Source: Nannochloropsis salina CCMP1776
Lineage: Eukaryota; Sar; Eustigmatophyceae; Eustigmatales; Monodopsidaceae
Length of the DNA stretch: 64,000 bases
Assembly: GCA_004565275.1 (NCBI GenBank)
Contig: SDOX01000145.1
Span: 69,071 to 133,070, forward strand
Reading direction: 5' to 3'
The notes below the pieces were generated by a model, which saw nothing but the letters and a program-made list of their open reading frames with translations, was not told the DNA's origin and ran no database searches. Below are positions 13,645 through 64,000 of the stretch, one piece after another. Both the position numbers and the translations under genes were made by a program. The stretch's first letter is position 1, and every line of letters starts with the position of its first letter.

Positions 13645-14940
13645 ATGCGTGCCCACATCCACGCACTAGCCCTGTTAGCCTTGATGGCTGGAGCGTTGGG
13701 TTTCCAGGTACGTGAGCTATTTGTAATTTTCATGCCTCGTGCGTTAGTCCCGATGTGGCCGTTTGATCCCTTGCTCTACCTCCCCCCCCCAGATCCCATT
13801 GACGATGAAAGCTCCTGGTGCTGGAAAGAAGGTCCTTATCATTGGAGGGACACGTTTCAGTGGCTTATACCTCTTCAAAGAACTCCATGACCGGGTACGA
13901 GCCCTTTGCGTAAAAACCTCCACGCCATATGCCAGCCTACTCGTCTCTGTAGTCTGATATGCCCTCTCTGTTGTGAAAATATTTCATCCCCATGTCTACC
14001 ATTCTAACCGTCTTCATCATGATCACGGCCTACGCAGGGCTACGACATCACACTTTTCAACAGGGGTAAGACAGCGAACCGCCCGGTTCCAGGAGAGAGC
14101 GCCGAGTCATATGCAGAGCGGATCGGTCAAGCCACGTTTGTGAAGGGGGATCGCACCAATCCCGATGACCTCGCTGCACTCGCCAAGGCGCATGAATTTG
14201 ACATCATATACGACATGAACGGGAGAGAGAAGACGGACACGCAGCCATTGGCCGACGCGTATAATGGCAGAGTGGACCATTTCGTCTACATGTCTTCAGC
14301 AGGCGTCTACTTGAAAAGCGACTTGATGCCTCACAAGGAGACCGATCCCGTCGACCCCAAGTCCCGACACAAAGGGAAATTCGAGACCGAAACGTATTTG
14401 GCGGAAAAAGGCCTTCCTTTCACGTCTATTCGGCCCACCTACATTTACGGTCCTCAAAACTACAACCCTCTCGAGGAATACTTCTTCCATCGTGTCGTGG
14501 CCGGGAGAGCGGTGGCCGTTCCAGGGCATGGGCAGCACTTGACGGGCTTGGGCCATGTCAAAGATCTGGCCACGGCGATGGCGCAAGTGATCGGGCGGGA
14601 GCAGGCCAAAGGGCAGGTCTACAATGTCCAGCACCCGCAAGCCATTACCTTCGACGGTGCCGTGCGACTGGCCGCCAAGGCCGCTGGGAAAGATCCGGAG
14701 AGCGTGAAAATCGTACATTATGACCCCAAGGAGTATGATTTCGGCAAGAAAAAGGCATTCCCGATGCGGCCTCAACATTTTTTTACGAGCGTGGAAAAAG
14801 CCATGCGAGATCTGGACTGGATGCCGGCCTACGGGAATACGGAGGGGTGGCAAGACTCTTTCGACCAAGATTATGCCTTAAGGACACATGAACCAGATTT
14901 CGAATGTGATGAGGTGGTCCTGGCAGGAAAGAAAAAGTGA
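13645..14940 (+). CDS. CSP41B: Chloroplast stem-loop binding protein CSP41b-like (atypical SDR/epimerase fold)
   Basis: Exons 13645-13707, 13793-13894 and 14038-14940, all joined in phase 0, give 355 residues. Exon 1 encodes a signal peptide ending GALGFQ, fitting the plastid bipartite leader with Phe at the cleavage site. Exon 2 carries the dinucleotide-binding start KKVLIIGGTRFSGLYL. Exon 3 holds motifs that match plant CSP41b closely: VYLKSDLMPHKETD, DPKSRHKGKFETE, RPTYIYGPQNYNP, GLGHVKDLATA and YDFGKKKAFPMRPQHFF. CSP41 proteins bind and protect chloroplast RNAs and lack normal epimerase activity. The stop follows a Lys-rich end. Nothing is truncated. The main doubt is CSP41a versus b; the YDFGKKKAFP block favours b. 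Confidence 0.9.
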
Positions 14941-22728: not shown

Positions 22729-24909
22729 TCAATCGACCGTCACCGCCTTGGCCAAGTTCCGAGGCTTATCAGGGTTGATCCCTCGCAAAACCGCTAATTC
22801 GTAGGCAAGCAGTTGCAGCGGCAAGGTGGCGATCAAAGCCGTTAACGGACCGTTATTCGGGACAATGATCGGATCAGGGACCAGCCCTCGGGCCAATTTC
22901 GGGTTGTCGGTGATGACGATCAAATCCGCCCCCCGCGCTTTGACTTCTTCGGCAGCCGTGCGCATGTGCTGAGCATGTTCGTCGTCGAGGATCAGACAAA
23001 TAATGGGGGTGGCGCCAAACTTTCCCTCCTTGCCCTCTATGAGGGCGAAGGGCCCGTGTTTGAGGGCCCCCCCGGAGTAACCTTCGGCATGGATGTAGGC
23101 CATCTCCTTGAGCTTTAACGCCCCTTCCAAAGCGATCGGCTCCCCGTACCCTTTCCCCAACAAGAAGATGTGCTCCTTGTCCTTGAGACGAACGGCCAGC
23201 TCCGCGCACTGTTCCCGCGTCCGTCGGGCCATTCCGAAACCGATCGGCATCCGTTGCAGGGCTTCTAGAAGCTCTGTCACCCGCCCCGGGAGTGCCTCCT
23301 CCCCGGCCTCTTCCCGAACCTGCCGGAACCAGGCCGTGATCAAGGTCAGCACCGTCACCTGCGTGGTGAACGCCTTGGTGCTGGCCACGGAGGACTCGCG
23401 CCCGGCGTTCAGGTAGACCCCGAGTTTGGTGGTGCGGGCGATGAGGGAGCCAACCGTGTTGACCACCGACATGGTGGGGAGGCCCATTCGGTCCGCCAGC
23501 ACCACCGCCCGGTGCACGTCCTTGGTTTCCCCCGACTGGGAGATGGCGAGGAGGCCGGCGTGGTGCTTGGGTAGGTCGGATAGCCGGACTTCCGCCGCGT
23601 CGACTGCCATGACGGTGCGGAAGGCTTCGAAGTCCCGCATCAATTTCGCCGCGTACATGGCCGCATGCAAGGACGTGCCACAACCGGTCAGAATAAGGTG
23701 CTTGATGCTTTGCATCCGTTCTTTTTGTCGGTCCAATCCTCCCAGGTAGACGCGCGTGTCGCTCATGCGGCCCCCAAAGCCTAGGGCTCGGGCGATCGCT
23801 TCTGGCTGTTCCAAACACTCGCGGATCGTCCAGTGCGGGAAAGGGGCAGGGGAGAGGAGGATGTTCACGTCCGGCGCTTTCTGCACGCGCGTCAAGTCCA
23901 AGGTGGACCCGTCCGCCCGGACCACGCCCAGTTCTCCGTCCTTCAGGGCAATGAAATTTTTGGTGTGCCGGTTGAAGGCAGACGTCTCGGAGGCGATGAA
24001 GACCCGGCCTTCCCCAATGCCCAACACCATGGGCGAGCCGTTGCAGGCCACCACCAATTCATCGGGCTCTTTGGGAGAGAGCACCACCAGGCCCCACGTA
24101 CCGTCACAGCGTTTTAGGGCCTCTGCGGTCGCATCTTTCAAGCTCAAATTCTCATCCAGGCCCAGGCCGATCAACTGCGCGATGATCTCCGTGTCCGTCT
24201 CGGAGACAAACTTGATCCCGTGGGCATGCTGGAGTTCGTGTCGAAGCTCGTGGCTGTTGGTGATGGTGCCGTTGTGCACTACCGCCACCCGGCCCTTGCT
24301 GTCCGTGTGGGGGTGTGCGTTCAGGTCGGTCTTGCCCCCGTGTGTGGCCCATCGAGTGTGGGCAATCCCCACGTGATGCCCCTTGTGCCGGTGGCTGTTT
24401 TCCTTGACCAGGTCGATGCAGTCGTACGTGGAGCCCGCGGAGGCATACTTCGTGACGGTCAACACGCTGTCGTGCGGGGAGATGGTCGCTATTCCGGCAG
24501 AGTCGTACCCACGATTTTGCAGCACGGTCAGACCCTCGATTAGAATGGAACGAGCGTCGTCCTCTCCGATTACACCAACAATCCCACAAGCTTCTGCGGG
24601 CGAGTCTTGCCGCTCTGAGAGTGCACCTAGGGCAGCAGTAGCCGCTGCCAGACCCCAGCCCCACCGCATGAACGGGGAAGAGGAGGAGGAAGAGGAGGAG
24701 GAGCTACCGGGGCTCATGTAGGCTGCCCTGCTGGCATATCTTCCTACCACATTTTGTTGTGGGTATCGTTGTCTGGACGAGTTTTTTTGGGCGAAGTTAC
24801 CGGAAAAGGAGGACGTCATCTTGATCACTGTGCTTGCCCAAGCATGCCTGCTCCCTCGCCGCACTAGGACACTAGAAACCTGCGCATGCATCCCTGGCTT
24901 GCTCTTCAC
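22729..24909 (-). CDS. GFAT: Glutamine:fructose-6-phosphate amidotransferase with long N-terminal presequence
   Basis: A single 726-residue frame. GFAT makes glucosamine-6-phosphate from fructose-6-phosphate and glutamine, the first step to UDP-GlcNAc. The class II glutaminase domain starts at Cys108 (CGIVGVIG) and holds [18 protein letters not shown] and HNGTITNS. Two SIS sugar-isomerase domains follow, with [27 protein letters not shown] and [11 protein letters not shown]. The end [13 protein letters not shown] is the canonical terminus. In the family the catalytic Cys is normally residue 2, exposed by Met removal. Here 107 residues precede it: a basic stretch, a Ser run (about 69-78) and a hydrophobic segment ([15 protein letters not shown]). 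A precise cut before Cys108 would be needed for glutaminase activity. The presequence suggests an organelle; mitochondria are most likely (inference). Confidence 0.93.
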
Positions 24910-25820
24910 CCTGCTTCACTGGTGTTGCTGCTTCAATTTTGAATTAGATTTGGTAGAAATGTGAGGGTAGAGACGACGTAAGTTGAATTTTTAAAATCGT
25001 TTTCAGTCGAAAATATGAAAGCACACGGGCTCGCTCCCATTCAAAGCGGAGCATTTCGGCAAAAAGGCAAGGGGCCACCGGCTCCAAAAAGTCAAAGGCT
25101 GTGACAATGCTGTTGAGTTCTTTCAACACAAGCCGCATATCAGCAAAATGGGTCAGTGAACCCATTGCTTTACGGGTCAAAGCCACACCGCCCGGGGCAG
25201 CACATTCAAACTAGCCCCTCCGCCAGCATATGGCCCATGCATAAAATTGCTCGAGATCGCCCTCAAATTCTCCACATATTCCTGTCCCGACTTCCGCTTC
25301 TCTTTCGCTCTGCGCCCTTGCTTAAAAAAGAGGGTGCGCGAAAGCGTGGGATGGGACGCGTGGTTGGAAGAGTGGCACATTTGAGCCAATGGCGGCAGCA
25401 TTACGATTTAGTCGTTCTTCTACGATTCGAGTTGCCGCCCCAGCACCATCTCCAAATAAAAATTAGCGACAAAACCCACGACCCTGCAGCGCATCAGGGC
25501 GACGAAAAGCATGACACGATATCAAACCTAGAAAGTGACTGGCCTGAGTGCGAGTAAGTGCAAGCCAAGGAACAAAATAAAATGCTCGCGTCCTTTTCTA
25601 CAGAGAGAGCCACTGACCAGTCCTTCTCTGCGTCTTGCATTTTTTACTTTTTTAACTCATGCCGTTGGAATCGTCGGACCATTTTTCATTGATTCTTATG
25701 ATTACAAACAGTCCGTACATCCTTTAGCGATCAACTATCACGAACAACACTCCCACCATGACTCCATTCCGCTACGCTGACTTCAGAGGCTAACACAGCG
25801 GCCCCTCACCGCTGGCAAAT
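24910..25820. other. Intergenic stretch
   Basis: The region separates the GFAT start from the 3' end of glutaredoxin, both on the minus strand. It should contain the GFAT promoter. Short frames on both strands show no family similarity. Confidence 0.45.
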
Positions 25821-32094: not shown

Positions 32095-35464
<3,370 letters not shown>

Positions 35465-36187
35465 GAAAGAAGAAAGGTGTTGGAGTCAGGCGTTCGAAGT
35501 CGGTATGATGGTGGCATGAGTGCACGAAAGCATATTATGATGACGACGAGGCGGGATGACAGGAGTGCGACAGTCACGAGCGTCGCCTTCGACCACGGCA
35601 CGAGCGTGGAAGAATTTGTGCTATCACTGTCCCCGAACAATATAGGAAACATATGCATACAACGAGAGGTAACATTGGCATGGTGTTGGGCCATCCCACT
35701 GCGAGTTGCGTGTCGGCTGCTGGTATTTGAAGAGGGAGAACCCTCGCTCTCTGCAGGGGCGAGCAAAGGAGAGAGCAGGCGTGCTGGCAAAACATAAAAA
35801 CTATCCGCGCGACAATCTGGCAGGAATAAACCAGGCATCACCACGAATGTATAACTCCGGTACGACACGCACAGTTCTGCTTGTGGTGTCCGCGGGGGTG
35901 TTTTTCAGGACTTTTTCGAAGTGAACGAGGGCCTCCCTAGCGGGATTCGGAGAGCCGTTAAATCGATCCTCCACCAGATCCGTTTCCCCGCCCCTATGGG
36001 AGATAACACCAATCAGGACTCCCTGGAGCCTTCTTGCCTTGCGTTTCCTTTCTCTTGCTGCAGGCTATACCTTCTTTCTTTTGTAACAAGGGTGTTGTCG
36101 TATCATGCGATCTCACTCGTTTTATGCTGTACTTTTACCTTTAGACAGAAGAGGCGATACGGGGGAAAAAAGGGCGCGTCAAGAATC
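35465..36187. promoter_or_regulatory. Divergent promoter region of CNNM-like and SEC12 genes
   Basis: The flanking genes point away from each other. The SEC12 frame extends upstream of the chosen Met to 35921 without a stop, so part of this stretch could be coding; the family match begins only at 36188. Confidence 0.4.
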
Positions 36188-46778: not shown

Positions 46779-49017
46779 TCATTCTTTCATGTCAGTCGGA
46801 GGGGACAAGGCACACACGGGGGTCAGGCAAGACGACCCGGATTTCGATGCCCTCCGCCCTACATCTCCATCCTGTTCCACCAGTGTTGCATGCTTGCTCA
46901 AAATCTCTGGTATTTCCACCCCAAAAGGACGTACCGCCCTCAACATGGCCTGCGGTGCAGCCGCGTATGCCAACAGAAGGCCATAGTTTGTCGTGGCAAC
47001 CCCCCCGTCGGCACATTCTTCCATGCGGGCCCGCACCTTTTGCCTGTCGATCATGCAGCCGCCGCAATGGACCACTACATCGTACCTCCCGTCTTGCAAA
47101 GCCTGCCAAGGAAATTCTCGGCCGTAGGCGTGATGAATATGGAAATCAAGGTGTGGAAACGCCCTCCGAAGGGCCTGAGGTAGCTGCACCGTGCCAATAT
47201 CGTCACACGCCTCTGGGATCCGGACATGATTGCATGCCTCCGCTATCAACACCCTCGTCTCTTTCCCTCCTTTGGTCAGCCTTGCCTCCTCCTCCATCTC
47301 CACCAGCCGGGTCATGCCCTCCACAAAGGCCCCCAACCTTCCCCCGCTCATGTGCTGAATCATGACGATGCTAAAGGTGGTAATGTCCACCGGCATCTGA
47401 AGCTTAGTAAATGATTCGTCCCCGGCAAGAGGCGGCAAGGTCCAGGCGTGGACGACGTCGATAGCTTGAGAGTCGGTGACGACCAGGCTACCCGGAGGGA
47501 GGAGGGAGAGGAGGGAGAGGAACTTGGCTTTCTCCTCCCCGTAGGGTGATTGCTTGGAGGAGACGGAGGGGGAGGGCGAGGAAGGGGGAAAGGATCGGGC
47601 TTTGCTCAGGTTCATCCGGTGGGCGATCGTTGGGATGTAGTGGTGGAGGCAGAAGGCTTGGAGGAGGGCCTGAGGCCGCAGGAGGCGGGTGAGGGGGGTC
47701 TCGGCGTCCATGGGGATGTTGAGGAGGACGATTTTGTCGTGATGGTATTGGAGGGGGAGGAGGGGAGGTCCGGGGTCCTCGGTGGGCAAGGAGGGGGCGG
47801 AGGCAGGGCGGGAGGACGGGCGGAGGGAGCGTAGGAGGTGTAAGGCCAGGGCCTTCCCCGCGCCGGGGGCTGTGAAGTCCGCCGTGAAGGAAGGGAGGAG
47901 GACAAAAGGGGAGCCCTCCTGCTCGCCATCTGTCGTGAAGAAAGGGAGGTTCCTTCTGACCGGGGGGCTTGCACTGGCCGTGGACGGGCCGATCGGCCTC
48001 CCCCTCCTACCTTGTCCCCCTCCTCCTCCCTCTACTCTTTTTAACGAGGATGAATTTTGTCCCTTGACATCCCTCCGAATACATTCTACGATGGAATTAA
48101 TCAGTTCCCTCACCCAAGGTGAGCTAGCGCCTGCCTCACCCGTCCGTTCCTCCCCCCCCCCCCCAGACTCGTCCTTCCCTCCCGTGCCACCTCCTCCTCT
48201 CTCTCCTTCTTCAAGTTGAAGACGAGCATGGCGCGGCGTCCCCGGCGGTCCATGGCCTGCACGAGGGAGGAGAGGAGGGAAAGAGAGGAAGGATCCGCCT
48301 GACAGGCTGTGTACGGTGGCGTTGCCATTGCGCTTTCGGACATATCCACTCCTATCCCACCTCCTCCCTCATCTCGGCGCCGTCCTTCCCTTCCCGTTCC
48401 ATCATAAGGCCTTTGGGACGAGGAACTCGACAGGATCTTGGAGAAAGGATCAATCACCACCAAGGCCACGTCAATTTCCTTCAAGGCCTGGTAGGTCCGC
48501 TCTTTTTTCTTCTCTCCCAACGCCCCCACGTCATCGATACCCGCCGTGTCGAGGAGCTTCACGGGGCCCAGGCCATGCAGTTCCAAGAGTGCAGCTTTGA
48601 CGTCGGCAGTGGTGCCGGGAGTGGCATCGACAATAGAGGTGGCCTGCTGGGTGAGTGCATTCAAACACGTGCTCTTGCCCGCGTTCATTTCCCCCACCAA
48701 GCCAATGAGGAGGCGGTGCAGCCCCGTCGAGGGAGGCGCCTTGGCGGTAGCCGACGAAAAAGAAGAAGCAAGGAGCGAGAGACATGGAGTACGTAAACGT
48801 CTGAGAAAGGATGACGGGATGGAGAGGGGGGAAGGAGGGCAGCACGTGAGTGAGAGGGGTTACTTGTAATGTTGAGGGCCCGAGAGTTCTAAACGTTCAA
48901 GCCACCCTTCTCGAAGGTCAAAATATATGCCTGTCTACCTGACTGCCACAAGGCACACTTTAGGAATGCATGCTAGTTGTAACACGAACCGCACCTGAAC
49001 GCTGCACTGCGCGGCAT
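46779..49017 (-). CDS. hydF: [FeFe]-hydrogenase maturation GTPase HydF
   Basis: HydF is the scaffold GTPase that receives the 2Fe subcluster from HydE/HydG and passes it to HydA. Model: exon 1 49017-48995, exon 2 48800 to about 48120, exon 3 about 48113-46779; an intron or frame change near 48060-48150 is required but its exact ends are unclear. The Arg-rich start MPRSAAFRRLRTPCLSLLAS looks like a mitochondrial presequence. GTPase motifs: P-loop GEMNAGKST (44-52) and LLDTAG; the usual NKxD is replaced by a NLKK-like segment. The dimerisation and cluster domains show LVVTDSQAIDVV, ITTFSIVMI, EACNH and HCGGCMIDRQ; the three cysteines are those that hold the [4Fe-4S] cluster in characterised HydF. 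Low-complexity Ser/Gly/Arg inserts enlarge the protein. hydF and hydA are head to head. Confidence 0.92.
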
Positions 49018-49354
49018 TCTTCCTTTCTTTCGTGACGTTCTGAGCTTCAACTCAGCGCCAAAGGGCTTGTTCTGACCGCGATGCCTGTATTAACAAATGT
49101 CTTTCAAAGCCTTTGCGCTGCGTTGGCATGGCCCGTGTCCGTGCGGGCATTGCCTGTATTGCCGGCGGGGGTGGCATGGGTCGTGGGAAAGGAAGTTTAC
49201 ACGATGCCAGCAGGTTCAAAAGGATGTCGTGCATGTCGCTCGTTTCCAGGACCCTCGCTTGAATGTTCTACTTTCTTCTTTTTTCAAGGCCATATTCTGA
49301 CAAATATTCTGTCACCAACACATCCTACGGACACAAATGCAGATTTAGGGGGCT
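49018..49354. promoter_or_regulatory. Shared promoter region of hydF and hydA
   Basis: The start codons of hydF (-) and hydA (+) are 337 bp apart, so both promoters must lie here or within 5' introns. An open plus-strand frame begins at 49081 and runs over this region, but it is not in the hydA frame. No known anaerobic or copper-response element is recognisable by eye. Confidence 0.6.
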
Positions 49355-51847
49355 ATGCGCGGCCTGCGTCTCCCGAAGCGGGTTATTGCGCACCGTGGAA
49401 CCGGCACATCGTCTGCATTCGCTCCTGTCAACCTGGCGCGGCCCAGACTGTCATTCTTGCGCCCTCGCCCCACCGCAAGCTCTGCTTTTTCCGACCACGC
49501 ACCCACCCCAAAAAATGCCATCCCAAATTCCATTCCAGGGGTGCACGAGGAGCTTGTGAACGTGGAAGTCAATGGATGGAGTATCACCGTTCCAGCGTAC
49601 TCGACCTTATTGGAAGCCGCCCGGGCCGCAGGGGCCTTCGTGCCTACCTTGTGTGCACACCCTTCCATTCCTGCGCGCGCCACGTGCCGCATATGTTTAG
49701 TGGAGCTCGAGACCGACCACGGGGTGAAGGAGGTGGTGGGCCCCGCGTCGGCCACGGACGCGAGGAGAGTCACGAAGCTTGTGCCCGTCACAAAGTTGGT
49801 CCCTGCCTGCGTGACGCCTGTCAAGGAGGGTTGTCGCATCCACACGCATTCTCCCGACGTGCTGAGCAATGTACGCTTTGTGCTTCAGCTCCTACGGGCC
49901 AAGCATCCCAACACCTGTCAGACATGTGACGCCGATGGGAATTGCACTTTTCAAGACTTGTTGTATCGGTATCAGGTAATTTGATTCGCTATTTACCAGC
50001 CCTCCCATGGTATCGCGTGCACTTGTGAAAATACATGGATCATGCACTCTATGATCTGTGTCTCCACTCCTTTCGTGAGGCCGGCTCATTTAAAAACCAA
50101 CACGTGCCTCTCCCCCTCCTCCTGCGCCTCCTCCATCTTTCCCAGGTAGAAGACGTCGCTCCCCCCGGAGTCCGGCGCACCTTCACGCACCACCATGAAT
50201 GGGACGGCGGGGCCAGCATTGCCGCCGCTTCGGACAGTCAGGGCCCGATGCCTTCCGAGGAGGATCCTTTCAATGCCATTACGTTCGACCCGGACAAGTG
50301 CGTCAAATGCGGGCGATGCGTGGCGATCTGCCAGCGGATCCAAGGGGTGGGGGCGATCGGTTTCGTCGGGCGAGGGGTCGATGAGCATGTGTCGACCACG
50401 CGGGGGCTGCCGTTGGACCGGACCAAGTGTATCGAGTGCGGGCAGGTACGGGGGGGGGGGGGGGGACGTAGCACAGTAAGGGGATTTCCTGTGTGTTAAT
50501 GGCTGGTGTATTTCGGTGTGTCGTGGGATCTTCTCTCCAGGGACATGACCCGAGGGGAGCGTCCCGAAGGGGGCTTCGGAGCACGCGTCGTCCAGTTGCC
50601 CTCAGACCCGCGTACCTCTTCTCCTTTCCGCCCCCCTCCAGTGCGCCGCCGTCTGTCCCACGGGGGCCATGCGGGAGCGACACGAGCTCTTCCAGGTGAT
50701 AGACGCCTTGGAGGATCAAAGCCGGGTGAAAGTCGCGGCCGTGGCCCCCTCTGTACGCGTGGCAATGAGCGAGGAATTCGGCCTGCCGCCCGGGCGCGTC
50801 TCCATGGGGCAAATCGTCGCGGGCTTGAAACTCTTGGGCTTCGACTACGTCTTCGACACGAATTTCTCCGCAGACTTGACCATCATGGAGGAAGGCACGG
50901 AGCTCCTGTCGCGGCTGCGGAAAGACCCGGGGGCAGGGCCCCTTCCGATGTTCACCTCTTGTTGCCCGGGTTGGATCAACCTGGTCGAAAAAAACTACCC
51001 GGAGTTGATCCCTCACCTCTCCAGCTGCAAGTCACCGCAGGGGATGATGGGCGCTTTGATCAAGAATGTATGGGCCCCGCGCTTGGAGCGAGACCCGGCG
51101 GACGTGGTCTCGGTCAGCGTCATGCCGTGTACGGCGAAGAAAGGGGAAGCCCACCGCCCGGCCGACAGGGGGGCCACCTACTCATCCAAGATCGACGGTC
51201 CCGTGCCCAACAACGACTACGTCTTGACCACGCGGGAAATCGGGCGATTGTTTCGCCTGCGGAAAATAGCGCTGCCTGCCTTGGATGCGCAAGTGCCCGA
51301 TGACCCCTTGGGAGAGAGCACGGGTGCGGCGGTCCTTTTCGGCGCGACCGGCGGGGTGATGGAAGCGGCGTTAAGGACGGCTTATGAATTGGCCTCGGGG
51401 GGACAAGAACTCCCAAAGATGGAAATGAGCGACATTCGGGGATTGCAAGGGGTCAAATCCTCTCGGGTTTGCATCCCCAATCCGGATGGGAAAGGACCAG
51501 GGGCGGTGGTACGTGTTGGTGTCGTGCATGGGACCGCGGAGACACGGGCATTGTTGGAAAGAATGAAGCTGGGGGATCCAGCCGCTCAATTCGATTTTGT
51601 GGAGGTGATGGCTTGCCGGGGAGGCTGCATTGGGGGAGGTGGGCAGAGCAAGAGCGACGACGCCTTGGTCCTGCAGAAAAGGATGGCACACGTGTACAAT
51701 TTGGACGAGAAGAGCGAGCTGAGGAAAAGCCATGACAACCCCAGCATCCAGAAACTCTACGAAAGCGAACTGGGAAGACCGGGAAGTGCCCGGAGCCATG
51801 CATTGTTGCATACACATTACTCAGACCGGTCCGAGCAAACAACATGA
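49355..51847 (+). CDS. hydA: [FeFe]-hydrogenase with N-terminal iron-sulfur relay
   Basis: Reversible H2 production from protons and low-potential electrons. Exons 49355-49975, 50146-50445 and 50642-51847 (phase 0) give 708 residues. A basic leader of about 60 residues is mitochondrial in character, although it also contains SSAFAP, a plastid-like motif. Then a [2Fe-2S] domain (Cys100, 111, 114, 152), a His-ligated [4Fe-4S] site (His184, Cys188, 191, 197; NuoG-like), two ferredoxin-type [4Fe-4S] sites (CVKCGRCVAIC; CIECGQ spliced to CAAVCPTG), and the H-cluster domain: TSCCPGW (414-415), MPCTAKKGEA (Cys469) and MACRGGCIGGGGQ (Cys632, 636). All H-cluster ligands and the proton-relay Cys are present, so it should be active. 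The layout is that of clostridial CpI, unlike the short chlorophyte HydA. Confidence 0.96.
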
Positions 51848-52163
51848 TTCGAGCATAAGACCTCGGGAAAGAGACTGAACGATATGTTGCATCTGCTTTA
51901 TTGGGGCAAGGTTTTGAAAAGAATGAATGATTTAAAAAAACAAACTACGTAACAAACGGAATCTGCACGGGCCTTGGTGCAGAAAAAAACAAAGCTTTCA
52001 ATAAAGCACTTGGAGCAATTTTTCACGCTGTTCCATCACGTGTGCTTGTCATTCAATTCTGTGTCTGGTTATCTCTCCCAAATATCACCCCATTCTTCTG
52101 CACAATATTCCTCCTGATCTTCTCGTCTATATCAATGACACATGCCATCGCTACGACCATGCC
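51848..52163. other. Convergent 3' region of hydA and hydG
   Basis: Both genes end into this 316-bp AT-rich stretch. An AATAAA-like signal lies near 51999 on the plus strand. No coding frame. Confidence 0.5.
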
Positions 52164-55100
52164 TCAAAAATACAGGTCTCGCTTCCCCTCCAAAAGGTGC
52201 CGGCGTTTCCTGTCGTACGCACGCTTGGCGTTGTCGCTCATGAGCTGACTCTCTCGATGTATGACTTCTGCGCCTATCGCCTTGGTTTGAGGACTGGCAT
52301 AATCCTGGCAAGTGCGGGTGCCATGTGGAAGGAGAGGAACAATGATGAGGGAGGAAGTTAGCTGAAAGATAAGAGGATAGTCAAGACAATATTATGCGAC
52401 AAGGGTTTTGTGTCCGCCAATGAAATTTTACCCCTTCTCCTGAACAAAAGAGAAACACAAAGCAAAGTCATACCTCCATGTACTCCTGCAGACTGAGCAA
52501 AGCATTCGGCTGGCAAAAGTCCTGAATGCGTCCACTCTTTGCGATCTTCATAAATGCTGCCCCGGTGCGTCCCTTCCGATAACAAGCCGTGCAAAAGGAG
52601 GGGATGAATCCGTCGTGAAGCAGGTCTTTAATGACCGTATCAAGAGGACGATGATCCTAGAGAGCGGGGAAAGAATGAGACGTCGGGATGGGTAGGTTAG
52701 TCAACAGACACAGAGAGCAGGGCCACCTAGAGACATTAAAAACAGCCGGAAAAATGGAATGACAGTAGCCGAACTTGCATCCTGCTTCTTATATCCGATC
52801 CATACACGCACACCCCCAGTGCCGCACCTGTAAACAGAACTGTCCACGTCTCAATTTATATTCCTCCGTGTCTTCCTCCTCTTCCTTGTGCGATGCATCC
52901 AGAGTGGCAGGAGGAGGTAGTTGCGACTTGGCCGGCCGCCCTGCTATGTATCCGTTGCCGCTCGTGCCGGCGGTGTTGCTAATGAAGGGGGCGGCGTCGC
53001 AAGAGGTATCGCGGTGGTAAGCCCCCACGTCTGTGCGTGACCCGGCGCTGATTTGAGAGATGCCCAAGCGTAAAAGCTCCCGACGTATCTGAGCTGACTC
53101 CCGGGTGGATAGGATCATGCCTGCAGACAACCCGCGAAGGGTAGGAGGGAGGGGATGGAGGAAGGAAAGGGTCAAGAAAGTGAGCAGATCACAGCTGTCA
53201 TCAGCAATACGACCGTCCAGCTTGCAATCTTTCTAAAGATCCTTTTTACTCCCCCATTCCTCCACATAGAAGCCTTTCTTACCCGTGTAGGGGACCGCAC
53301 ACCGAATGACAGCTACCAGTTTCTTGAAATCGTCGTCGTGAACCGGCATGGGGATGTGCTCCGCTGCCGGGGCGTTCAGGGCCGGCTGCATGCGGGGGAT
53401 GGAGATAGTGTGGGGTCCCGTGCCGTAGGTGCGATCGAGGTGGTGGGCGTGCATGAGGAGGCCTAATACCTCGAAACGGTAGTCTAGTGGCAGAGGGAAG
53501 GAATGTGAAAGGCAGGGAGGAACAATGAGATCGCGCCGGGTCCTTTGTACGGGAGACAGAGAGACGTCGCAGAAGGATTCTGAGAGACGGAAAGGGTTGT
53601 GCGAAGGCACTCCCTTTCGTTACGACCCCGAAAAAAGAATAAAATGGAAGCGATTGATACATGGGAGAGAGCCTCCGGCCAAAAGAACGTGAGAAGTCCC
53701 TTCTACCTTCCTAAAGATAAATAGATTTGTGCCCCAACCCATTACAGACGTCGCGGAGCCAGATCCGTTCCCATCACCGGCCCCCTCCTTTCCTTACCGG
53801 CCAAGCCGAAGAGCGCCCCGATTCCCACGTCATCCAGGCCACCCAACTGCGCCCGATCCATGGTCAGGATCCTGGGCCGTGATGTGAGTTGGTGAGCGTA
53901 ATTCAGGACAAGAAGATCCCGCCAAGGACGACTTTCTCCGCGTCTCTTCTGTCTCACTTACGTATCCTCCCCTAGCTTATGGCGGCTGGCACGACTTACC
54001 TGTGATTGTAGTCGCTCTTTGGTCCACCGGGATGCATTTTCCGAAAAGTGTCACGGTGGTAGGTTTCCTGGAAGAGCGTGTAGGTACCTGTGGCAATGCC
54101 ATTTGAAATTTGTGGGCGCTTTTCTTAAATCGCCTCCAACGCAGGGATATGAACTCTCGTATGACACTCAAACACCAGCATGTGTGAAATAGGAAAATAA
54201 AATGACCACTAAAGAAGGGTACCAATGTATTGAGTAGCCTTGAGGCGTCGCATGTCGGAGACGGAGAGGGAGGGAATCTCCACGTTGATCCGACGAATCT
54301 CCCCACACGGATTAGGGGTCTTGACAGTGCCAACCTGAGATGACGAATCAGTGTCAAATGAGCGATAAACGGGGCTGAGACACGGTGAAAATCGCCTCCT
54401 CGATGGGGATGAGGCTGTGCGATACGGTCAATTTCAAACACGAAGGCTTGCAGGGACCTGTCTGCCGTCTGTTGGAAGCAGCAGCAGTCTTCCCCTCCCC
54501 TACTGACGCCTCCAATGATCTATCGGAAGTGTACGTACCACTTGGACTGCCTCGAGAAACCGGTCAAACGAATACTTGGGGTGCTCGCCGGTCAGAAGCA
54601 GCAATCGTTTGTGTCCGATCGCCTCCAAGGCTTCCACTTCTTGTCTGGGAGGGCAAGGGACAATCCTCGTGATTGATCTCTTTCTGACAAACCAACTTGA
54701 TCCTAGTCCCTACGCTACTTGTACGCCACTTATAACGTAATCCGGATCATCAACGTACAAACCTCAAACCACTGCCCTTCGCGCCGTCACACACCCAGGG
54801 CGCCATCTATGCCGATGTACCTTGCTGTCACACACGTAGAATCAGAATTATTCTTCTCCCAGACACAGTCACACATCGAAGCAATTGTCTCTAAAAGAGA
54901 CACGAGTCTTCAGGTATTTCTCCAGCAAACCTACCGCAACTCGTCCATGGTGAGCATGCTTCGCTGCATCTGCTTGTTGGCCCCACGGAAGGCACAGTAC
55001 TGGCACGTATTTACACACCAGTTGGCCAAGTAAACAGGCGCAAAGAGCACAATACGGTTGCCTGTTGAAAAAGACATGAAATAGGTCAGAAAATTCATCC

Positions 55101-55729
55101 GGAAAAAGCCTGCAACAATCTACCACAAGGACCGAATTTCCCCTAGCTTCTGCTTCAATCATGTGTTCTTAAGATCCTACCGTAGATCTGTTGCTTCACA
55201 TTCAAGGCAGCATCACACAAAAGCTGCATTATGTCTTTGTTCCCCGAATCGACGTTTAAGAGTGTAGCTGCCTCCTCCAGAGTGAGTCCTTGAACAAATT
55301 CATTCTGGGGCGGGTCTGCGGTAGGGTGCCCTGGGGGCATGGCCTGAAGCCGGGCCCTTTCTTGAGCAGCCACTAGAATAGCTTTGACGCATGCGGCATC
55401 TTTTGCCTGGTATTTGCACGCACAATGTTGGTGGGCATATGCGTCGTGAATTTGTTGGGGCATATACATATGGAGCGTCTTCCCGCAGTCGTCCTCCGTC
55501 TTCGACCCACCTTGTCTTTTGTCTCCTCCAATAAGCGATTGATCAGACCTTCGTTGATAATTTTGGCAGGGTCCTCATATTTATGGTGGTGTTCAGTCTC
55601 GATTGACCATTGAGCCAGCCAGCGTTGCTGGTGGTGTCTGGATGGCAACTTACCTCCCCGGGACGCCGCCGTCGGGGTCGTAAAGAGACTTCGAGGACAA
55701 AGCCGGCCAGACGCCCGCCACAGCATCAT
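52164..55729 (-). CDS. hydG: [FeFe]-hydrogenase maturation radical-SAM enzyme HydG
   Basis: HydG cleaves tyrosine to give the CO and cyanide ligands of the H-cluster. Eleven exons: 55729-55511, 55406-55181, 55061-54935, 54644-54539, 54334-54223, 54087-54000, 53871-53798, 53483-53283, 53120-52828, 52656-52474 and 52304-52164; all phases close and give 589 residues. The Arg-rich, acid-poor start (MMLWRASGRLCPRSLFTT) is a typical mitochondrial presequence. The SAM cluster motif CVNTCQYC lies at 164-171; LLLLTGEHPKYSFDRF and SAGSRTDVGAYH follow. The C-terminal auxiliary cluster motif C-x2-C-x22-C (504, 507, 530) is intact. An insert of about 50 residues rich in Ser and Glu sits after the SAGSRT motif. 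hydG and hydE are head to head. Identification is certain. Confidence 0.96.
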
Positions 55730-55916
55730 AAGAGGGACCGACACACGCTCAACTATCTTGATTGAGAGGCCGTAGGAAAGATGAGAGGGAAAACGCGTGG
55801 TTGTCTCGCTTGAAAGCGGAACAAACGCTTCTTGAATTGCGTTGTCTCTCCTTCTGCTTCAACTTTGTCAGGAAGAAGTGAACCAGGTCTTCAAAGTCAC
55901 TTTCGCATTCTCACGC
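55730..55916. promoter_or_regulatory. Bidirectional promoter of hydG and hydE
   Basis: Only 187 bp separate the two start codons, so transcription in both directions must start from this short stretch or close to it. That makes shared control of the two radical-SAM maturases likely. No defined element is visible. Confidence 0.7.
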
Positions 55917-58123
55917 ATGCAACAATCACTCACGCCAGGCAACGGCATGCTTGTACCCCGAGCACTGCATTATTTTCCTGCAAACGTGGTGGTGCTTTCG
56001 GTCTGTGGCAGCTGCCTAGGTTTCCATACCAAACAGATCCTTCGAGCCCGACGCTTTTGGACATGCTCCTGCCCTCGCGCCTTGCGCCGCCAACGATCAC
56101 TGTCAGTCACTGCACGCCATGCCAGCGACAAAGGCACTGCGAGAGGGGGTGCTGAGCCTCTTTGGTCACCCTTGAAGGACTTCCTTGGCCTCGATCGTTT
56201 GGACGCAGGACAAAAGCTGGACATCTCTAGGCGGCAGTTGACAGAACTCTTGACAACGAAAGACAGGACTTTAATCAAGTCCATGTACGCTGTGGCTGAG
56301 GCTGCGACGAGTACGTTCTTGCGATGTTCTATTTGTGTTTTTCAAATATGTACTGACATTTTCTTAAACCGGAAGGCGCAACCCGTAAGGATAGGATGAA
56401 AGCTCAGTACAGTCGAAGACTAGGCTAAAAGCCTTCATAATAGCACGTCCATGGGATCTATCCAAAAATTATCGCAGGCCTAAAAAATAAAATAATGGGT
56501 ATAAATCACATCGTTGTGAATCCATCACTTCCACATCTCTCTTTCCCACTTCCGTCCTATCTGTTCGCAGCGGCATATTTCGGCACCAAAGTGTACGCCC
56601 GAGGCATCGTCGAATTCAGCAATGTCTGCACCAAGGATTGCTTTTACTGCGGTATCCGCAAGCACACGGTAAGGGTCGGCCCTATCATGGAACAGGAGAG
56701 CCGGACGCATTGGAGACATGGGGATTGCAACCTGTCTAAAGCCCAGCGTTCCTCCCCCGATCCTCCCTCACGCTCTCCCTGGCCACGGATCACCCGCAGA
56801 AGGTACACCGCTACACGATGACAAAAGAGGAGATTTTGGCCTGTGCGGAATTTGCCTATTCTCAGGGAATGGGCACACTGATGCTGCAATCGGGAGAGCT
56901 GCCTTCCCCTGAGAGAATCAAGTGAGTACGACGGGAGCGGGTACCCGGTGGGACAAGGCCGGAGCGATGATGAGTAGGTCCAAGCGAGATTCTAGGCGTA
57001 AATCATACTGCCTTGACATGGGTTCCACCCCACCCACCCCAGCTTTATGTTAGATGTGGTGCGGGCCATACGACGGCGCACAATGGACCTGGCATGCGAG
57101 TCTCCCCCCTTTCCCTCAGCCGGCCCAAACCAGCGTGACTTTCCTTCCCAGCGCGGTCTCGCCGTCGCCCTCTCCTTGGGTGAGCTCCCGTCGTCAGTCT
57201 ACCAGGCCTTCTTGGAGGCAGGGGCCTCCCGCTACCTGTTGCGGATCGAAACCAGCAATCCTACTTTGTACACCAGGCTCCACCCTGCCTCCCACTCTTT
57301 CCAGGCACGTCGCAAATGCCTGGAAGAACTGCAGAGAATCGGCTTCCAAGTGGGGACGGGCGTGATGGTGGGGGTGCCGTTCCAGACCGTGGAGGACCAG
57401 GCCAACGATCTCCTTTTCTTCAAGGTATGTGCCACCCCCCCATCTTCCCCCCTTCCTCCAGCATACCGCTTGACGCTGCATCGCCCCTTCTTGCGCCCTC
57501 CCCCTCCCCCTCGTTCACAGGAACTCGACCCCGACATGATCGGACTCGGCCCGTACATAGTGCAGTCACAAACGCCGCTGGGCAAGCTCTGGCTGGAGGA
57601 GCACGGGGAGGAATCCGCAGCGAAACAGGAAGCAAACCGAGTGGCGCTCCTGGAGAGGACCACACGCATGTACGCCCTGGCCCGAATCATGCTGGGCAAC
57701 GTCAACATTGCCGCCACCACGGCACTGGAGGCCTTGGATCCGGAGGGGAGGGAGCTCGCGTTGCGGCGGGGGGCGAATGTGGTCATGCCCATCATCACGC
57801 CACAACGCTTGCGAGGTAGGCAGGGACCAAAGCCTTGTCAGTGGTGACGTATAGGATCTTACGACAAGTGCTCTGTGGCTCCATCCAGCCGCTAAGTTTT
57901 TGGAAACTTTTCTCGTGCTCACAGCCTCTCCTTCCCCCCTTGTACTTTACTTCCCCCCCCCTTAGGCCAGTATGAAATCTATGAAAACAAATCAGGCATC
58001 GATCAGGATGCATTGGATAGCACCGCGTGTCTGGAGCGGCGGGTGCGAATGGCGGGGAAGGAGTTGCTGCTGGATGGAGGCTGGCATGACCCACCCCATT
58101 TTGTGAGACCCTCTGTAGAATAG
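55917..58123 (+). CDS. hydE: [FeFe]-hydrogenase maturation radical-SAM enzyme HydE
   Basis: HydE acts with HydG in building the 2Fe subcluster, using an Fe(Cys)(CO)2CN unit to yield the dinuclear precursor in current models. Exons 55917-56310, 56571-56668, 56800-56921, 57043-57424, 57521-57815 and 57966-58123 give 482 residues. The radical-SAM motif CTKDCFYC (151-158) is followed by GIRKHT. Other HydE blocks are TLMLQSGE, ALSLGELPSSVYQAFLEAGA, YLLRIETSNPTLYTRLHP, GFQVGTGVMVGVPFQT, IGLGPYI and the final NVNIAATTALEAL with GANVVMP. The leader is longer than in the partners: a hydrophobic patch (VVVLSVCGSCLGF) and an Arg-rich segment (ILRARRFW; RALRRQRSL). This could be a bipartite plastid leader or a mitochondrial one. 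A 20-residue insert before GLAVALSLGE stays in frame. Confidence 0.95.
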
Positions 58124-58714: not shown

Positions 58715-61308
58715 GTCTTTAGTCTATAGTGTGGACCTGTGAGTATGTGTGCGGTTGGTTGAATAAGTTATAACGCTCATCTGAAACCCAAACAGGAGGC
58801 CCCGTCTCCATCGCCCTCGACGGGGTGGAAGATGAGAGTACTGCAAGATACAAAGTCCTATAAATACAACGGTGCGGCTTCCCCAAGACAAGACAACAGA
58901 AGCAACCTTGAATACTAAAGCATTCTTGCACATGTCGTCGAAGAAAGCGAAACGCCTACAATGAGCACGTCTAGCTTTTCTACTTCGAGATTGAAGGACT
59001 GCAGGTTTATCGCCTTGAGAATTTTCAGCTGAAGAAAGGGAGGAAAAAGTTCCCGAGGGCTCGAGACATGCTCGGGCTTAATTTCCCTCGGTTAAAAGCG
59101 GGCTTTTCCAATCCCGTGCCTCATTTTCAGCCAGCGTAAGCATATTGAATGTGCTTCTGACAAAGGATGATCGACTTTCTACTTCGTTGCGAGCAAGGCC
59201 GGGGGGGGCAGATATCGAGCAACACAAGATGAAATATGCACGTGGGAAAGCTCGTTCAGTGCCTCGATCCTGTCCCATGCTCTAAGTGAAAGACACCTAT
59301 CCGGGGGAATAAATGGTGTCTTCCCGGAAAAAGGCATATGACGTGTAGTAAATAAAAATCTCATTTGAAACCATATGATATTTTCTCTGTCCCAACTTTT
59401 TTTGGCAAAATTTTATTTCCCACATGTGTGTAGAGGCACCTCAATAAAGTGAAGGATGAAATCTTTGGTACATTGAGTATCATAGATGGACGCGCAGTGC
59501 GGATCAGGTACTCATTAAAATGGTTCAGAGTTGGATTCAAAATCCCTTTATGAGTCGCTACGGGAGATACGTGCAGGACCACAAAAACTTCTGTACGTCT
59601 GTCCAATCACAAGCACGTACGCTTATAGTAGAACACTGCACAAAGCACGGGACTTCTTTCCAGGGGGGTGGATGGTAGCAATCCAATTCTTCACATCCAA
59701 CAATAACCAAAGTCAATTGAGTCAATGGAAAGATGTTTTTTGAGATCAATGCTTCGTTCATTTCCTTTGATCACCTGTAAAGATTGATATTGATACTTGC
59801 TTTCAGCAAAAACGTTTTTATTTTGCCAACTTAAAACAGTGGAAATGGTGGATCGTAACTTTTGAGCAGAGGGGAAACGAATTATTTGGCCATTGACTTC
59901 TCGATTGAAAAAGGTATCCAGAAGCTCGGTAGGTGATAGAATAAAAGTGATATTTTCAATCTGTACCGAAACAAACTTCTTCCTTTTAAGGCATGAGTAC
60001 ATCTTGCAAGTAGACGACAGAATAAAAGTGATACCTTTAATCTCTGCCGAAACGAACGGCTTCAAGGCATAGAATGCATCTTGCAAGAAGTGTCCCTCAG
60101 TCGTCGGCTTGCACGTCATCCATTATCTACATGACCTTCAAAGCACCCCCTTCTATTTATATGCTTGATTATCAGACAACGTTGCGGCCCCCTTCTTAAG
60201 CCGTAAAGCATTTATTAAAATAATGGTAGACAATGATCAGTTATGGCTTCTTGCTTAACTTTATTCAACCCTTTCGGTTTACCTTCTATGTCTTCAGCGT
60301 TGTTGCCATGCCGCCTGAAACAGCCCAGGACGGGGGGGGGGGTAGTCAAGCTGTGAAATGCATGCGAAAGCTCTCTTTTTATCCTATGCAAACGGCATAT
60401 ACAGACATATTTTTTAAAATTGAAATTACTTTAAAACTCACTACTTTCCATCGAGTTGTGACCACTGCTCAATGGCCCATCATTACAGTCCATCCTCGTC
60501 TCGCTCTTCTTTCTTCAGAAAGGATGGGATTGAGATCTTTTTAGCAAATATGAAGATTAAAAGTGAATGTACACTTACTTATTGCGAGTGGGACACGAGC
60601 GTTGATGAGGACATGACTAGCGTGTGCCAGCTCTATGCTCAAAGCACCGTGCTCGCCGAAGATATCACCCCGAATTTTTCACACAGAAAACGCAGAGCAC
60701 ACCTCTCCTCTCACTTCCTCTGAGTGTTCATGATACTTTCCGGTGCATATCTGGTGTTCTCAGGGAGTAGCCACTACGGTCATCGTCTGGCATTTCCTCC
60801 CGCTCCGGCCGTTTTCTTTCAATTTCCACTCTCAGACCAGCAGCCTTTCATCGAATGCCCTGGCCTTTTCTTTCAGCCATCGCTGCATTATGTGTGGTCT
60901 CGTCGTCATCGCCGCAGGCCCCTTTTCCTGACATGAAATTTGTGGAAATATGTACCTAGTGGTCGGCCGCCTTACTTGTTCTGTTGGTTTTCATATTTGA
61001 GAGTAACCTCCCTCCACGCTGACGTCGAACGACTCATGTTCTGGGTACAGGGAGCACCGGCGTCGTGCGGGGTGCGGCTGTGTGGGCACGACAGCTGGGC
61101 GGTGGCGATTAGGTGTCGGGGAAAAAAGGGGGGATCATAGTAAGGATTGGGGAGCTCAAGTGCCATTCAGTCACAAAGTAGCGAAGAAAGGACGGAAAGC
61201 GTCCATATCGGGGCGAAGTCAAGCGCGCAACAAATGTACCATGGCTTCGAGGCCGAGTACGGCGGGGTTGGCGAGGAGCTGACATATCCTCTGTGCAGGG
61301 AAGAAGAA
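58715..61308. other. Long stretch with no recognised gene
   Basis: This AT-richer stretch separates the hydrogenase locus from the regulator at 61.3 kb. Apart from one weak repeat-bearing frame (59691-60119) I see no coding candidate, RNA gene or mobile element. The promoters of the small gene at 58.4-58.7 kb (-) and of the regulator (+) should lie at its two ends. Confidence 0.45.
59691..60119 (-). CDS. Weak candidate gene with an internal duplication
   Basis: A 142-residue frame from a Met. Two adjacent units of about 27 residues resemble each other (ALKPFVSAEIKGITFILS and CLKRKKFVSVQIENITFILS). The DNA repeat behind them is about 75-82 bp, at roughly 59934-60010 and 60016-60090. The reading frame is kept in both copies, which favours a former or present coding role. 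No family is recognised, and the AT-rich setting weakens the case. Confidence 0.3.
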   Translation of the reverse strand: MTCKPTTEGHFLQDAFYALKPFVSAEIKGITFILSSTCKMYSCLKRKKFVSVQIENITFILSPTELLDTFFNREVNGQIIRFPSAQKLRSTISTVLSWQNKNVFAESKYQYQSLQVIKGNERSIDLKKHLSIDSIDFGYCWM

Positions 61309-64000
61309 ATGGACACACACCCCGCGCTGGGTGGTCCCTTAGATGGGGTTTCAACAGCCATGTCCGCTTTGAGCACTAGCTTCGCAGCGACGGGTCATGG
61401 GCCGGGGCCGGCCCACGAGGGCCACGCTAGCGGTGCTTTTGCTCCCCCGTCCACGGAACATGCCGGTTTCATGTGCGCAGCTCCCATGGCCATGGGCACG
61501 GCAGACGCTAGCTCGGCCCATCTGCCCTTGGGCCATGTGGGAAGCGGGAGTAGTGGCAACAGCAGATACAGTGGGAGTGGCGGCGACAGCGTGAGCGTGG
61601 GGACTGGTGGCTTCCATCCATCCTTCTCGAGCGGCCTTCATTCCTCCTCCGGGGGGGCAGCCGGGGATATGCCGAATGCGGAGTTGGTTCGCGTTCGAGT
61701 CGAAACTTCTGGAAAGAAATTGCTGAGGGAAGCTGCCCTGCTGACCCGCCTGGCCGAGATACTGCTTCCAAAGCAGGAACGAGGGAGCGAAGAGGGGAGG
61801 GGCTGGGCGGAGGGGGATGCGGGGGCGGTGGGTTGGACAGAATGGTTGGCAGGGGAGCTTGGAAACGACACGAGGCGTGCTCGCTTCTTACTCGCCATGT
61901 CGGGGGAGAGGGAAGGAGACGAGGAGGCGGTGGAGCGAGGAGGGGACGGAGGGAAGGCGCTCAGTCGAATACGCGACGCACTCCGAGCCTACGTCGCAGG
62001 CGACCCGCCTGCTGCATCCCTTTCCCACACAGCCAGCCACCACCCCCTTGCCTCCTTGGGCCCCTCCCTCCTCCCGCCGCCCCACTTGGTCATCGTCGTC
62101 GACCACCCTCCCACAGCGCTCGCCTTGACCCGCCGCGCCTTGGAGGCGGGGCTTCGAGTCTCGGTGGCCCGCAATGCCTTCCACGTCTTGAGCGAGGTGA
62201 TCGAGCGCGGGGAAACCTACTTCCACGGGCTGGTTCTTGAGGTAGACTCGCCCATTATGAGCGGGCTGGAGGCCGCCATGAAGTTCAGAGGGCTCCCCTC
62301 CCCCCTGGTGGTGCTGGGAGAGGGGGAGAGAGGTGCGGAGCAAGGAGGGCCCGCGACCCAGACAGCTGGGGCGGAGCAAGGAAGGGAGGGAAGGCGGGGA
62401 GGACTAGAAGGTAGGAAAGGGAGCATGCTCTCGGCGACAGCGAAGCTGATGATGGTGATGGTGGTGAATGGCAGCCGGCACGCGAACTACTCGGGCTTCG
62501 AGGCGCACGCCCTGTCGGCGGGGGCGGATTATGTGGCACAGGAGTTCGAAGAGCTCTCCTTCGAGAATTTGAAGAAGCAGTTGGAGCGGAGGAGCGAGGT
62601 TGGGATGAGGGAGGCCGCAGGGAGGGCAGTTGAGGATGTGGCACAGGGCGGGGAAGGGAGGGCGGGGGGCGAGGAGGGAGGGAGGAGGGGAAGAGGAAAG
62701 GCTGCCAAGCCGAGCAGCGGGCTCAGGCAGGGTCTCCCCTTGGCCCGATTGCCGTCGTTCACATGGACGGGCGCCCTGCCTTTGTCGAGGGGGGAGTCAG
62801 CCTCGCTCTCTCGATCCAGCAGTGAGACGATCAGGTCGGGCAGACCCGCCTGGAGCGCCGGGGAGACGTCTGCGATGGACTCAACCATCATGGGGCTCAG
62901 CCCTTGGGAGGACCTCTCTGTTCCCCGCGGAGGTAGCCTCTTGCCCATGGCCCACTCCCATACGGCGGCTGCCCACGTGGCCCTGGCTGCTGGGGCCGAC
63001 GGGGGAGGGGGGGAAGGAGGGCCCGACGGAGGGGGGGGCGGATATGGGCCGGGACAGGCGAGTGGGGGTGGGGAGGTGGCGGCTCGGGAGCTCCGGCGGA
63101 AGGACAAGCGCGTCCGACGTGCCTGTATGTATTGCCACGGGAAGAAACTGTCGTGCTCCTTCCACAGGCCTTGCGACCGTTGCTACGCCTTGAATCAGAA
63201 CTGCGTGGAATACGTGCCAAAACAGCGGACTTTTGACTCCACGGTGAACATCTACTGCCCGCCCGCCCCAGGTCCTGCCGCCAGGGCGAAGAGCGAGGAT
63301 GGGTGGGGCGCGGAACAAGACGGGGTCTTCGGGAAGGAGAGGAAGGAGTCTTTGCCCTCTCGGACCAGTAGCCCCTCCCTCTCTACCTCCGGCAGCACCT
63401 ACGGGATCGCCCCGCCTCCGGCCTCTGCCAACGCGGCGAAAAGTGTGGGAGGCCCCCTCTTGTCCATGTCCTCGCATCCTTGGTCTCATGTGGGGGATAA
63501 CAGCGGGGTAGGAAGCGGGAGAAGTGGTGTCAGCGAGGCCGGGACTCTGGCAAACAGCAGCGGGAACCAGAGCAGCGGGTCGAAACGGAGGCGCAAGGGG
63601 GTCGAAGGGGGCCGTTTCCAGCGGGAAGAAAGCGTCGCGGGCGGCAGGAGGGGAAAGCAGGGCCAGGACGACAGAGAAAGCGGGACCGGCCTGGGAGCAA
63701 ACGAGACTGAGGAAGCAAGGGGGCGTATAGACCTGGTCATCTCGCCCCCCTCCTCCGCTTCCTCCGCCCCGTCCTGCCCGACCCCCCACCTCCTCTCCCT
63801 CTCCCCCCCCAGTGGCCTCATTCCAGCCGCCACCATGTTCCCTGCCTGTTCACCGCGCACCGCGGCGGCGGCGGTGGGGGCGGCGGCGGCGGGAGCGGCG
63901 GCGGCGGGAGCGGCTGGAGGATCTTGGAAATCGGAGGCATCGGACAAGATCCACCCTTCTTCCTCGTCCTCCACATTCAGATCCCCTCACCAAGCTCTCA
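61309..64000 (+). CDS. Pseudo-receiver plus Zn(II)2Cys6 regulator (3' end outside window)
   Basis: The frame from the Met at 61309 stays open for 897 codons to the window edge. Residues about 258-410 match a response-regulator receiver: HLVIVVDHPPTALALTRRAL, a VSVARNAF strand, then LVLEVDSPIMSGLEAAMKF. Here Glu311 stands where the phospho-Asp should be (46 residues after Asp265), and the usual late Lys is replaced (GADYVAQEF), so it is a pseudo-receiver and Glu may mimic the phosphorylated state. A Gly/Glu-rich insert lies inside this domain. Residues 606-632 form an exact Zn2Cys6 cluster, C-x2-C-x6-C-x5-C-x2-C-x6-C, preceded by a basic stretch (RRKDKRVRR). Such clusters bind DNA in fungal regulators and occur in Nannochloropsis, where one affects lipid content. 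Targets are unknown. Low-complexity Gly/Ala runs continue to the end. Confidence 0.82.
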   Translation, partial: MDTHPALGGPLDGVSTAMSALSTSFAATGHGPGPAHEGHASGAFAPPSTEHAGFMCAAPMAMGTADASSAHLPLGHVGSGSSGNSRYSGSGGDSVSVGTGGFHPSFSSGLHSSSGGAAGDMPNAELVRVRVETSGKKLLREAALLTRLAEILLPKQERGSEEGRGWAEGDAGAVGWTEWLAGELGNDTRRARFLLAMSGEREGDEEAVERGGDGGKALSRIRDALRAYVAGDPPAASLSHTASHHPLASLGPSLLPPPHLVIVVDHPPTALALTRRALEAGLRVSVARNAFHVLSEVIERGETYFHGLVLEVDSPIMSGLEAAMKFRGLPSPLVVLGEGERGAEQGGPATQTAGAEQGREGRRGGLEGRKGSMLSATAKLMMVMVVNGSRHANYSGFEAHALSAGADYVAQEFEELSFENLKKQLERRSEVGMREAAGRAVEDVAQGGEGRAGGEEGGRRGRGKAAKPSSGLRQGLPLARLPSFTWTGALPLSRGESASLSRSSSETIRSGRPAWSAGETSAMDSTIMGLSPWEDLSVPRGGSLLPMAHSHTAAAHVALAAGADGGGGEGGPDGGGGGYGPGQASGGGEVAARELRRKDKRVRRACMYCHGKKLSCSFHRPCDRCYALNQNCVEYVPKQRTFDSTVNIYCPPAPGPAARAKSEDGWGAEQDGVFGKERKESLPSRTSSPSLSTSGSTYGIAPPPASANAAKSVGGPLLSMSSHPWSHVGDNSGVGSGRSGVSEAGTLANSSGNQSSGSKRRRKGVEGGRFQREESVAGGRRGKQGQDDRESGTGLGANETEEARGRIDLVISPPSSASSAPSCPTPHLLSLSPPSGLIPAATMFPACSPRTAAAAVGAAAAGAAAAGAAGGSWKSEASDKIHPSSSSSTFRSPHQAL

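Follow-up and report, generated by a model that had tools for sequence, protein, structure and literature searches.

How often, and from which donors, eukaryotes acquired their hydrogenases is an old debate, bound up with the anaerobic history of mitochondria. The locus examined here raises this question for a whole set of genes at once: in a stretch of 64,000 nucleotides of contig SDOX01000145.1 (hereafter, the window), the [FeFe]-hydrogenase gene hydA (+) and the maturation genes hydF (−), hydG (−) and hydE (+) lie together at positions 46779-58123. The original prediction had suggested an ancient joint acquisition of the four. With a probability of roughly 0.8, we consider the four genes to be the hydrogenase cluster already described for Nannochloropsis, from this genus or a close eustigmatophyte, and the set to be mosaic by ancestry, with HydE and HydF of one bacterial type, a Thermotogota-like HydA and a HydG without a placement. 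Judged from the sequences, the gift of a whole operon in one step by any sampled lineage is not supported.

The four genes and their arrangement

The gene models, built from stop-to-stop frames, spliced alignment to protein profiles and manual curation, agree with the original prediction in placing the genes side by side in two head-to-head pairs, hydF/hydA and hydG/hydE, with gaps of 337 bp and 187 bp between start codons. The features are as follows.

49017-46779, minus strand: hydF-like gene, 634 amino acids (aa), 3 exons (49017-48995, 48800-48114, 47973-46779)
49018-49354, no strand: hydF/hydA intergenic stretch, 337 bp, candidate bidirectional promoter (from the gene models)
49355-51847, plus strand: hydA, 708 aa, long (M3-like) [FeFe]-hydrogenase, exons 49355-49975, 50146-50445, 50642-51847
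51848-52163, no strand: 316 bp between the stop codons at which hydA and hydG converge (from the sequence)
55729-52164, minus strand: hydG, 589 aa, 11 exons (spliced model)
55730-55916, no strand: hydG/hydE intergenic stretch, 187 bp, candidate bidirectional promoter (from the gene models)
55917-58123, plus strand: hydE, 482 aa, 6 exons (spliced model: 55917-56310, 56571-56668, 56800-56921, 57043-57424, 57521-57815, 57966-58123)

The locus is also intron-rich, as had been proposed, with about 19 introns (HydA 2, HydE 5, HydG 10, HydF 2); those of HydA, HydE and HydG are GT-AG in all 17 cases. In HydF, exon 1 was picked by fitting phases because its frame has no upstream methionine, and the second intron is uncertain, since the frame changes near 48.11-48.17 kb. 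Instead of an intron, this change may reflect an indel in a stretch of 13 G, because the corresponding 13 C of the plus strand (48152-48164) sit where the frame changes. Another long homopolymer of the plus strand, 16 G, was observed at 50450-50465. Clustering by chance or through an assembly error was rejected, since clusters have been reported from two Nannochloropsis genomes and the exons join by GT-AG introns.

HydA (468.6 bits against TIGR02512, cut-off 405.95), HydE (324.6 bits against TIGR03956, cut-off 254.6) and HydG (493.7 bits against TIGR03955, cut-off 312.15) passed their NCBIfam thresholds; the four gene identities hold, with HydF below its own threshold. Columns with 95% or more conservation across the bacteria sampled (50 bacterial rows for HydA) were retained in 104 of 107 cases in HydA, 32 of 32 in HydE, 46 of 49 in HydF and 88 of 95 in HydG, and every cysteine and histidine within such columns was kept in all four proteins, which bears out the claim of intact catalytic and cluster-binding residues. 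HydA, a long form that fits group A of the [FeFe]-hydrogenases and has N-terminal iron-sulphur domains, retains 22 of 22 conserved Cys/His columns, comprising the H-cluster cysteines and the Cys/His of the accessory clusters. The best structural matches of its H-domain were PDB 4r0v, 2n0s, 3lx4 and their relatives, which we take to be Chlamydomonas HydA1. HydE keeps its CX3CX2C motif (C151, C155, C158), and HydG keeps both sets of cluster cysteines (C164, C168, C171, C504, C530); C507, the middle cysteine of its C-terminal CX2CX22C, is present, its column lying outside the 95% list. HydF retains the GTPase core and the CxH...HCxxC cluster site (C484, H486, H539, C540, C543), and its C-terminal part matches PDB 5lad, 3qq5 and 5kh0, titled GTP-binding proteins and presumably HydF structures.

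The original prediction had guessed that such a locus might be on record, and the cluster has indeed been in print since 2012. Vieler et al. 2012 (PMC3499364) describe in N. oceanica CCMP1779 a single hydA with hydE, hydF and hydG directly upstream and downstream and without the HydEF fusion, cite a similar cluster in N. gaditana, and report H2 accumulation by N. oceanica only when methyl viologen was present. The window resembles that cluster in its single hydA and its directly adjoining, unfused hydE, hydF and hydG; no difference from the N. oceanica and N. gaditana clusters appeared among the features compared, which did not include strand layout. In D'Adamo et al. 2014 (PMC3897525), HYDA of N. 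gaditana groups with green algae, and a joined tree of HYDA, HYDE, HYDF and HYDG places N. gaditana as basal among the algae. A later study (PMC4416025, 2015) described a cluster in Volvox, compared it with the Nannochloropsis ones and noted that HYDEF and HYDG are near each other in Chlamydomonas and Chlorella. The statement that these genes are dispersed in most eukaryotes was therefore too strong as far as algae are concerned.

Gene order and bacterial relatives

The arrangement was compared with that of bacteria and of Volvox. By hand count, hydE and hydG were on the same strand in all 29 bacterial genomes that carry both above the cut-off on one contig, and none of the 8 HydA loci holding all four genes, among 80 gathered, had hydF and hydA head to head. 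Since neither divergent pair occurs in these sets (0/29 and 0/8), the layout changed after any transfer, or apart from it. Volvox carteri has the same divergent pair, with HYDEF on the minus strand, HYDG on the plus strand and 425 bp between them according to the published table (PMC4416025), and so an old common algal origin of the hydE/hydG pair is favoured; its shared algal ancestry is plausible. In the consulted passages of the algal hydrogenase literature, we found no remark on this shared orientation, and none of the papers listed by a literature search contained the terms "bidirectional promoter" or "head-to-head". The Volvox HYDA1-HYDA2-HYDEF-HYDG set resembles the window in being clustered, but it has two HYDA genes without F-domains, HYDE is fused to HYDF, other genes are interspersed, and about 57 kb separate its outermost members. 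Bacterial runs of hydA-hydG-hydE-hydF in Thermotogota (L012, L013, L014, L017) also bring the four genes close together and hold the nearest group of HydA; in contrast to the window, they lie on one strand, are intronless and carry HydE and HydF that belong to a different type.

HydG, HydE and HydF were sought in the genomes behind 50 of the 80 bacterial HydA loci; trees were built for all four proteins, and alternative placements were evaluated with approximately unbiased (AU) tests. The HydF match of L024 (a different GTPase) and L225 (213 aa) were removed, L240 (internal stop) was never included, and HydF matches from the class of G044 other than L190-L193 were kept out of the trees. Overall, the window proteins are about 35-50% identical to their highest-scoring bacterial forms. 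HydF formed a group with G039 (Bacteroidia) and G044 (Prolixibacteraceae) with support 100/100, which persisted with 55 rows and in a long-branch check that omitted G048 together with seven long HydF rows. The window HydF shares with these two genomes 36 residues that occur in no more than 5% of the 34 remaining rows; 200 random pairs of other rows yielded at most 3. HydE was sister to G039, G044 and a deltaproteobacterial metagenome-assembled genome (MAG), with support 100/99. The Bacteroidota MAGs in question (the genomes of L055 and L067) resemble the window in their HydE and HydF; they differ from it in having the four genes on separate draft contigs and in the type of their HydA and HydG. 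Algal contamination of the two genomes is unlikely, because the contigs that carry HydF and HydE in G039 and G044 bear long intronless frames, including a rhamnosidase and RlmD.

The divergent HydF and HydE of these two MAGs (L219 5685-6944; L220; L221; L222) are rare and have ordinary bacterial neighbours. In the class to which G044 belongs, G044 itself was the only one of 295 genomes with a close HydF (146 bits, against 71.5 or less); in the phylum of G045, 1 of 349 genomes gave a match at E 1e-15 (67 bits), and in that of G026, 51 of 299 did so at E 1e-20, the best with just 83 bits.

HydA showed another affinity. Among the prokaryotic contig matches listed, its closest relatives were from Thermotogota (53-55% for the best four), and in the tree it paired with HydA1 of Chlamydomonas (92/83), the two being nested with 16 Thermotogota rows, Pleionea and Eisenbergiella (97/92). 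When Eisenbergiella and either the window HydA or HydA1 were omitted, the remaining algal protein still grouped with Thermotogota and Pleionea (100/98 and 98/97). HydG grouped weakly with Riflebacteria and Aminicenantes rows in a first tree (76/35) and, once 15 further rows were added, stood alone between two large bacterial clades with no firm sister. For HydG, the AU tests rejected both a group of the window with G039/G044 (2e-4) and one with the Thermotogota core (1e-4). The former was also rejected for HydA when HydA1 was included (2e-7), and the latter for HydE (2e-3) and HydF (3e-5). Shared sister groups in separate trees, which the original prediction had named as support for a joint origin, were thus found for HydE and HydF alone; HydA has another sister and HydG none.

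In 12 of the 50 genomes with a close HydA, no HydG match was detected at E 0.001; these may be incomplete MAGs or may have hydrogenases without maturases.

Genomes without a HydG match: L001, L011, L015, L021, L023, L024, L025, L040, L044, L060, L068, L074

Weighing the possible origins

Within the sampled genomes, no bacterium was nearest for all four proteins. The placement shared by HydE and HydF is rejected by HydA and HydG, and for this reason a single intact operon is unsupported. The proposal of an ancient joint acquisition is consequently unsupported as the transfer of an intact operon from a sampled lineage; an old algal origin is favoured for at least the hydE/hydG pair. Bacterial sets can themselves be mosaic: G039 and G044 combine the variant HydE and HydF with HydA and HydG of another type. 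An already-mosaic single donor, an unsampled donor or a stepwise gathering of the genes are all possible.

Three other accounts can be set against these data. The transfer of a complete operon from one bacterium, later split by introns and rearranged, is doubtful: HydE, HydF and HydG lie within the fetched flank in 8 of the 80 bacterial HydA loci, the authors of the Volvox study prefer a remnant of transfer (PMC4416025), and the mosaic sets of G039 and G044 would suit it, but the AU tests speak against shared placements and the four proteins have no common nearest genome. Slightly better placed, though still short of an even chance, is the acquisition of the genes at different times, with selection for joint expression from common promoters assembling them in the eukaryote. 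It agrees with the different sister groups and with the absence of both head-to-head pairs from the examined bacterial loci; however, the two intergenic regions have no clear promoter words in common, and the published four-protein tree in which N. gaditana joins the green algae (PMC3897525) indicates that the set may predate the lineage. A recent horizontal transfer into Nannochloropsis, raised as possible by Vieler et al. in view of the clustering (PMC3499364), is very improbable given the roughly 19 spliceosomal introns, the modest identity to bacterial forms, the grouping of HydA with Chlamydomonas HydA1 and the divergent E/G pair common to Volvox (PMC4416025).

Several points weigh against the mosaic ancestry and the identity of the cluster as we propose them. 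Degli Esposti et al. 2016 (PMC4967309) argued for an alphaproteobacterial ancestry of eukaryotic hydrogenases and placed Rhodospirillales beside the eukaryotic maturases; those Rhodospirillales were not deliberately sampled here, our choice of bacteria concentrated on genomes that carry a close HydA, and the window supplied the only eukaryotic row of the HydE, HydF and HydG trees. HydF scored 225.2 bits against TIGR03918, under the cut-off of 325.55 (its bacterial sisters, with 299.7 and 300.8 bits, are likewise below it), and the start and middle of its model are uncertain. Both HydF and HydE are on long branches; every HydF tree returned a long-branch warning, the first of them also one of odd letter composition, and the HydA trees warned of long branches when HydA1 or Pleionea was present. 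For HydE, the exclusive residues are weak evidence (5, where the controls reach 3 at most), bootstrapping of the larger tree had not converged, and the sister group also contains the deltaproteobacterial MAG.

If the set is mosaic, a more specific history can be tentatively drawn, which we regard as possible but rather unlikely in all its parts: algal hydrogen metabolism would have had at least two, perhaps three, bacterial sources, the E/G pair would have been built once and early, and the green algal fusion would have joined HYDE and HYDF that had arrived together. HydE and HydF would come from a rare line of Bacteroidota type, HydA from a Thermotogota-like source and HydG from an unsampled line; the E/G pair of an early alga would have been retained, or moved as a unit, in green algae and stramenopiles. 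Were this true, the mosaic ancestry and the layout common with green algae would make the old debate testable gene by gene, and the E/G pair could serve as a marker of common descent or common transfer.

Predicted function, location and neighbouring genes

According to the roles of the named families, the radical-SAM enzymes HydG and HydE would supply the two-iron centre with its CO, CN and precursor components, and HydF, a GTPase with a [4Fe-4S] site, would deliver the two-iron unit to HydA and thereby activate it. In dark anoxia, HydA, with its H-domain and accessory iron-sulphur clusters, would then pass electrons, probably from ferredoxin, to protons. The layout suggests two shared promoter regions as candidates. 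A comparison of the words shared between the two intergenic regions gave no clear regulatory signal (6-mers, p 0.27; 8- to 10-mers, 0.06-0.12), the 7-mers being borderline (0.044), and GTAC and TATA were absent in this check.

The predicted N-terminal leaders hold up as extensions. By simple measures, those of HydA, HydF and HydG are arginine-rich, with no acidic residue in 40 and hydrophobic maxima of 0.42-1.32, and look mitochondrial; that of HydE is not clearly so, and appears to have a core like that of the plastid control (hydrophobic maximum 2.49, against 2.00 in PsbO). The HydA leader contains SSAFAP, which resembles the stramenopile plastid motif, without a preceding hydrophobic stretch. 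In core chlorophytes, the long HydA often, and the maturases generally, are predicted to be mitochondrial (PMC12924338), a pattern that the window leaders fit, although it does not settle their location. The control itself lies in the window: a gene for PsbO, the manganese-stabilising protein, at about 2958-4054 (+), with a plastid-type leader that ends in AQAFVP. Together with the agreement between the cluster and the published ones, this gene is consistent with a eustigmatophyte.

The rest of the window was surveyed by stop-to-stop open reading frames (ORFs), 30 of which were compared with Pfam (28 of them belong to the 57 ORFs that reach 170 aa or more). No hydrogen-related family was found among the matches of these 30, in a survey that misses most spliced genes. 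About 3 kb downstream of hydE, a long frame at 61144-63999 (+), cut by the window end, bears a fungal-type Zn(2)-Cys(6) cluster domain and is possibly a transcription factor. A MutS-like protein (MutS domains V and I) extends across two open frames at 6396-10344 (−), and frames with SIS and glutamine amidotransferase domains (22732-24915, −), a CNNM domain (33872-35485, −) and an epimerase domain (14023-14937, +) are ordinary neighbours.

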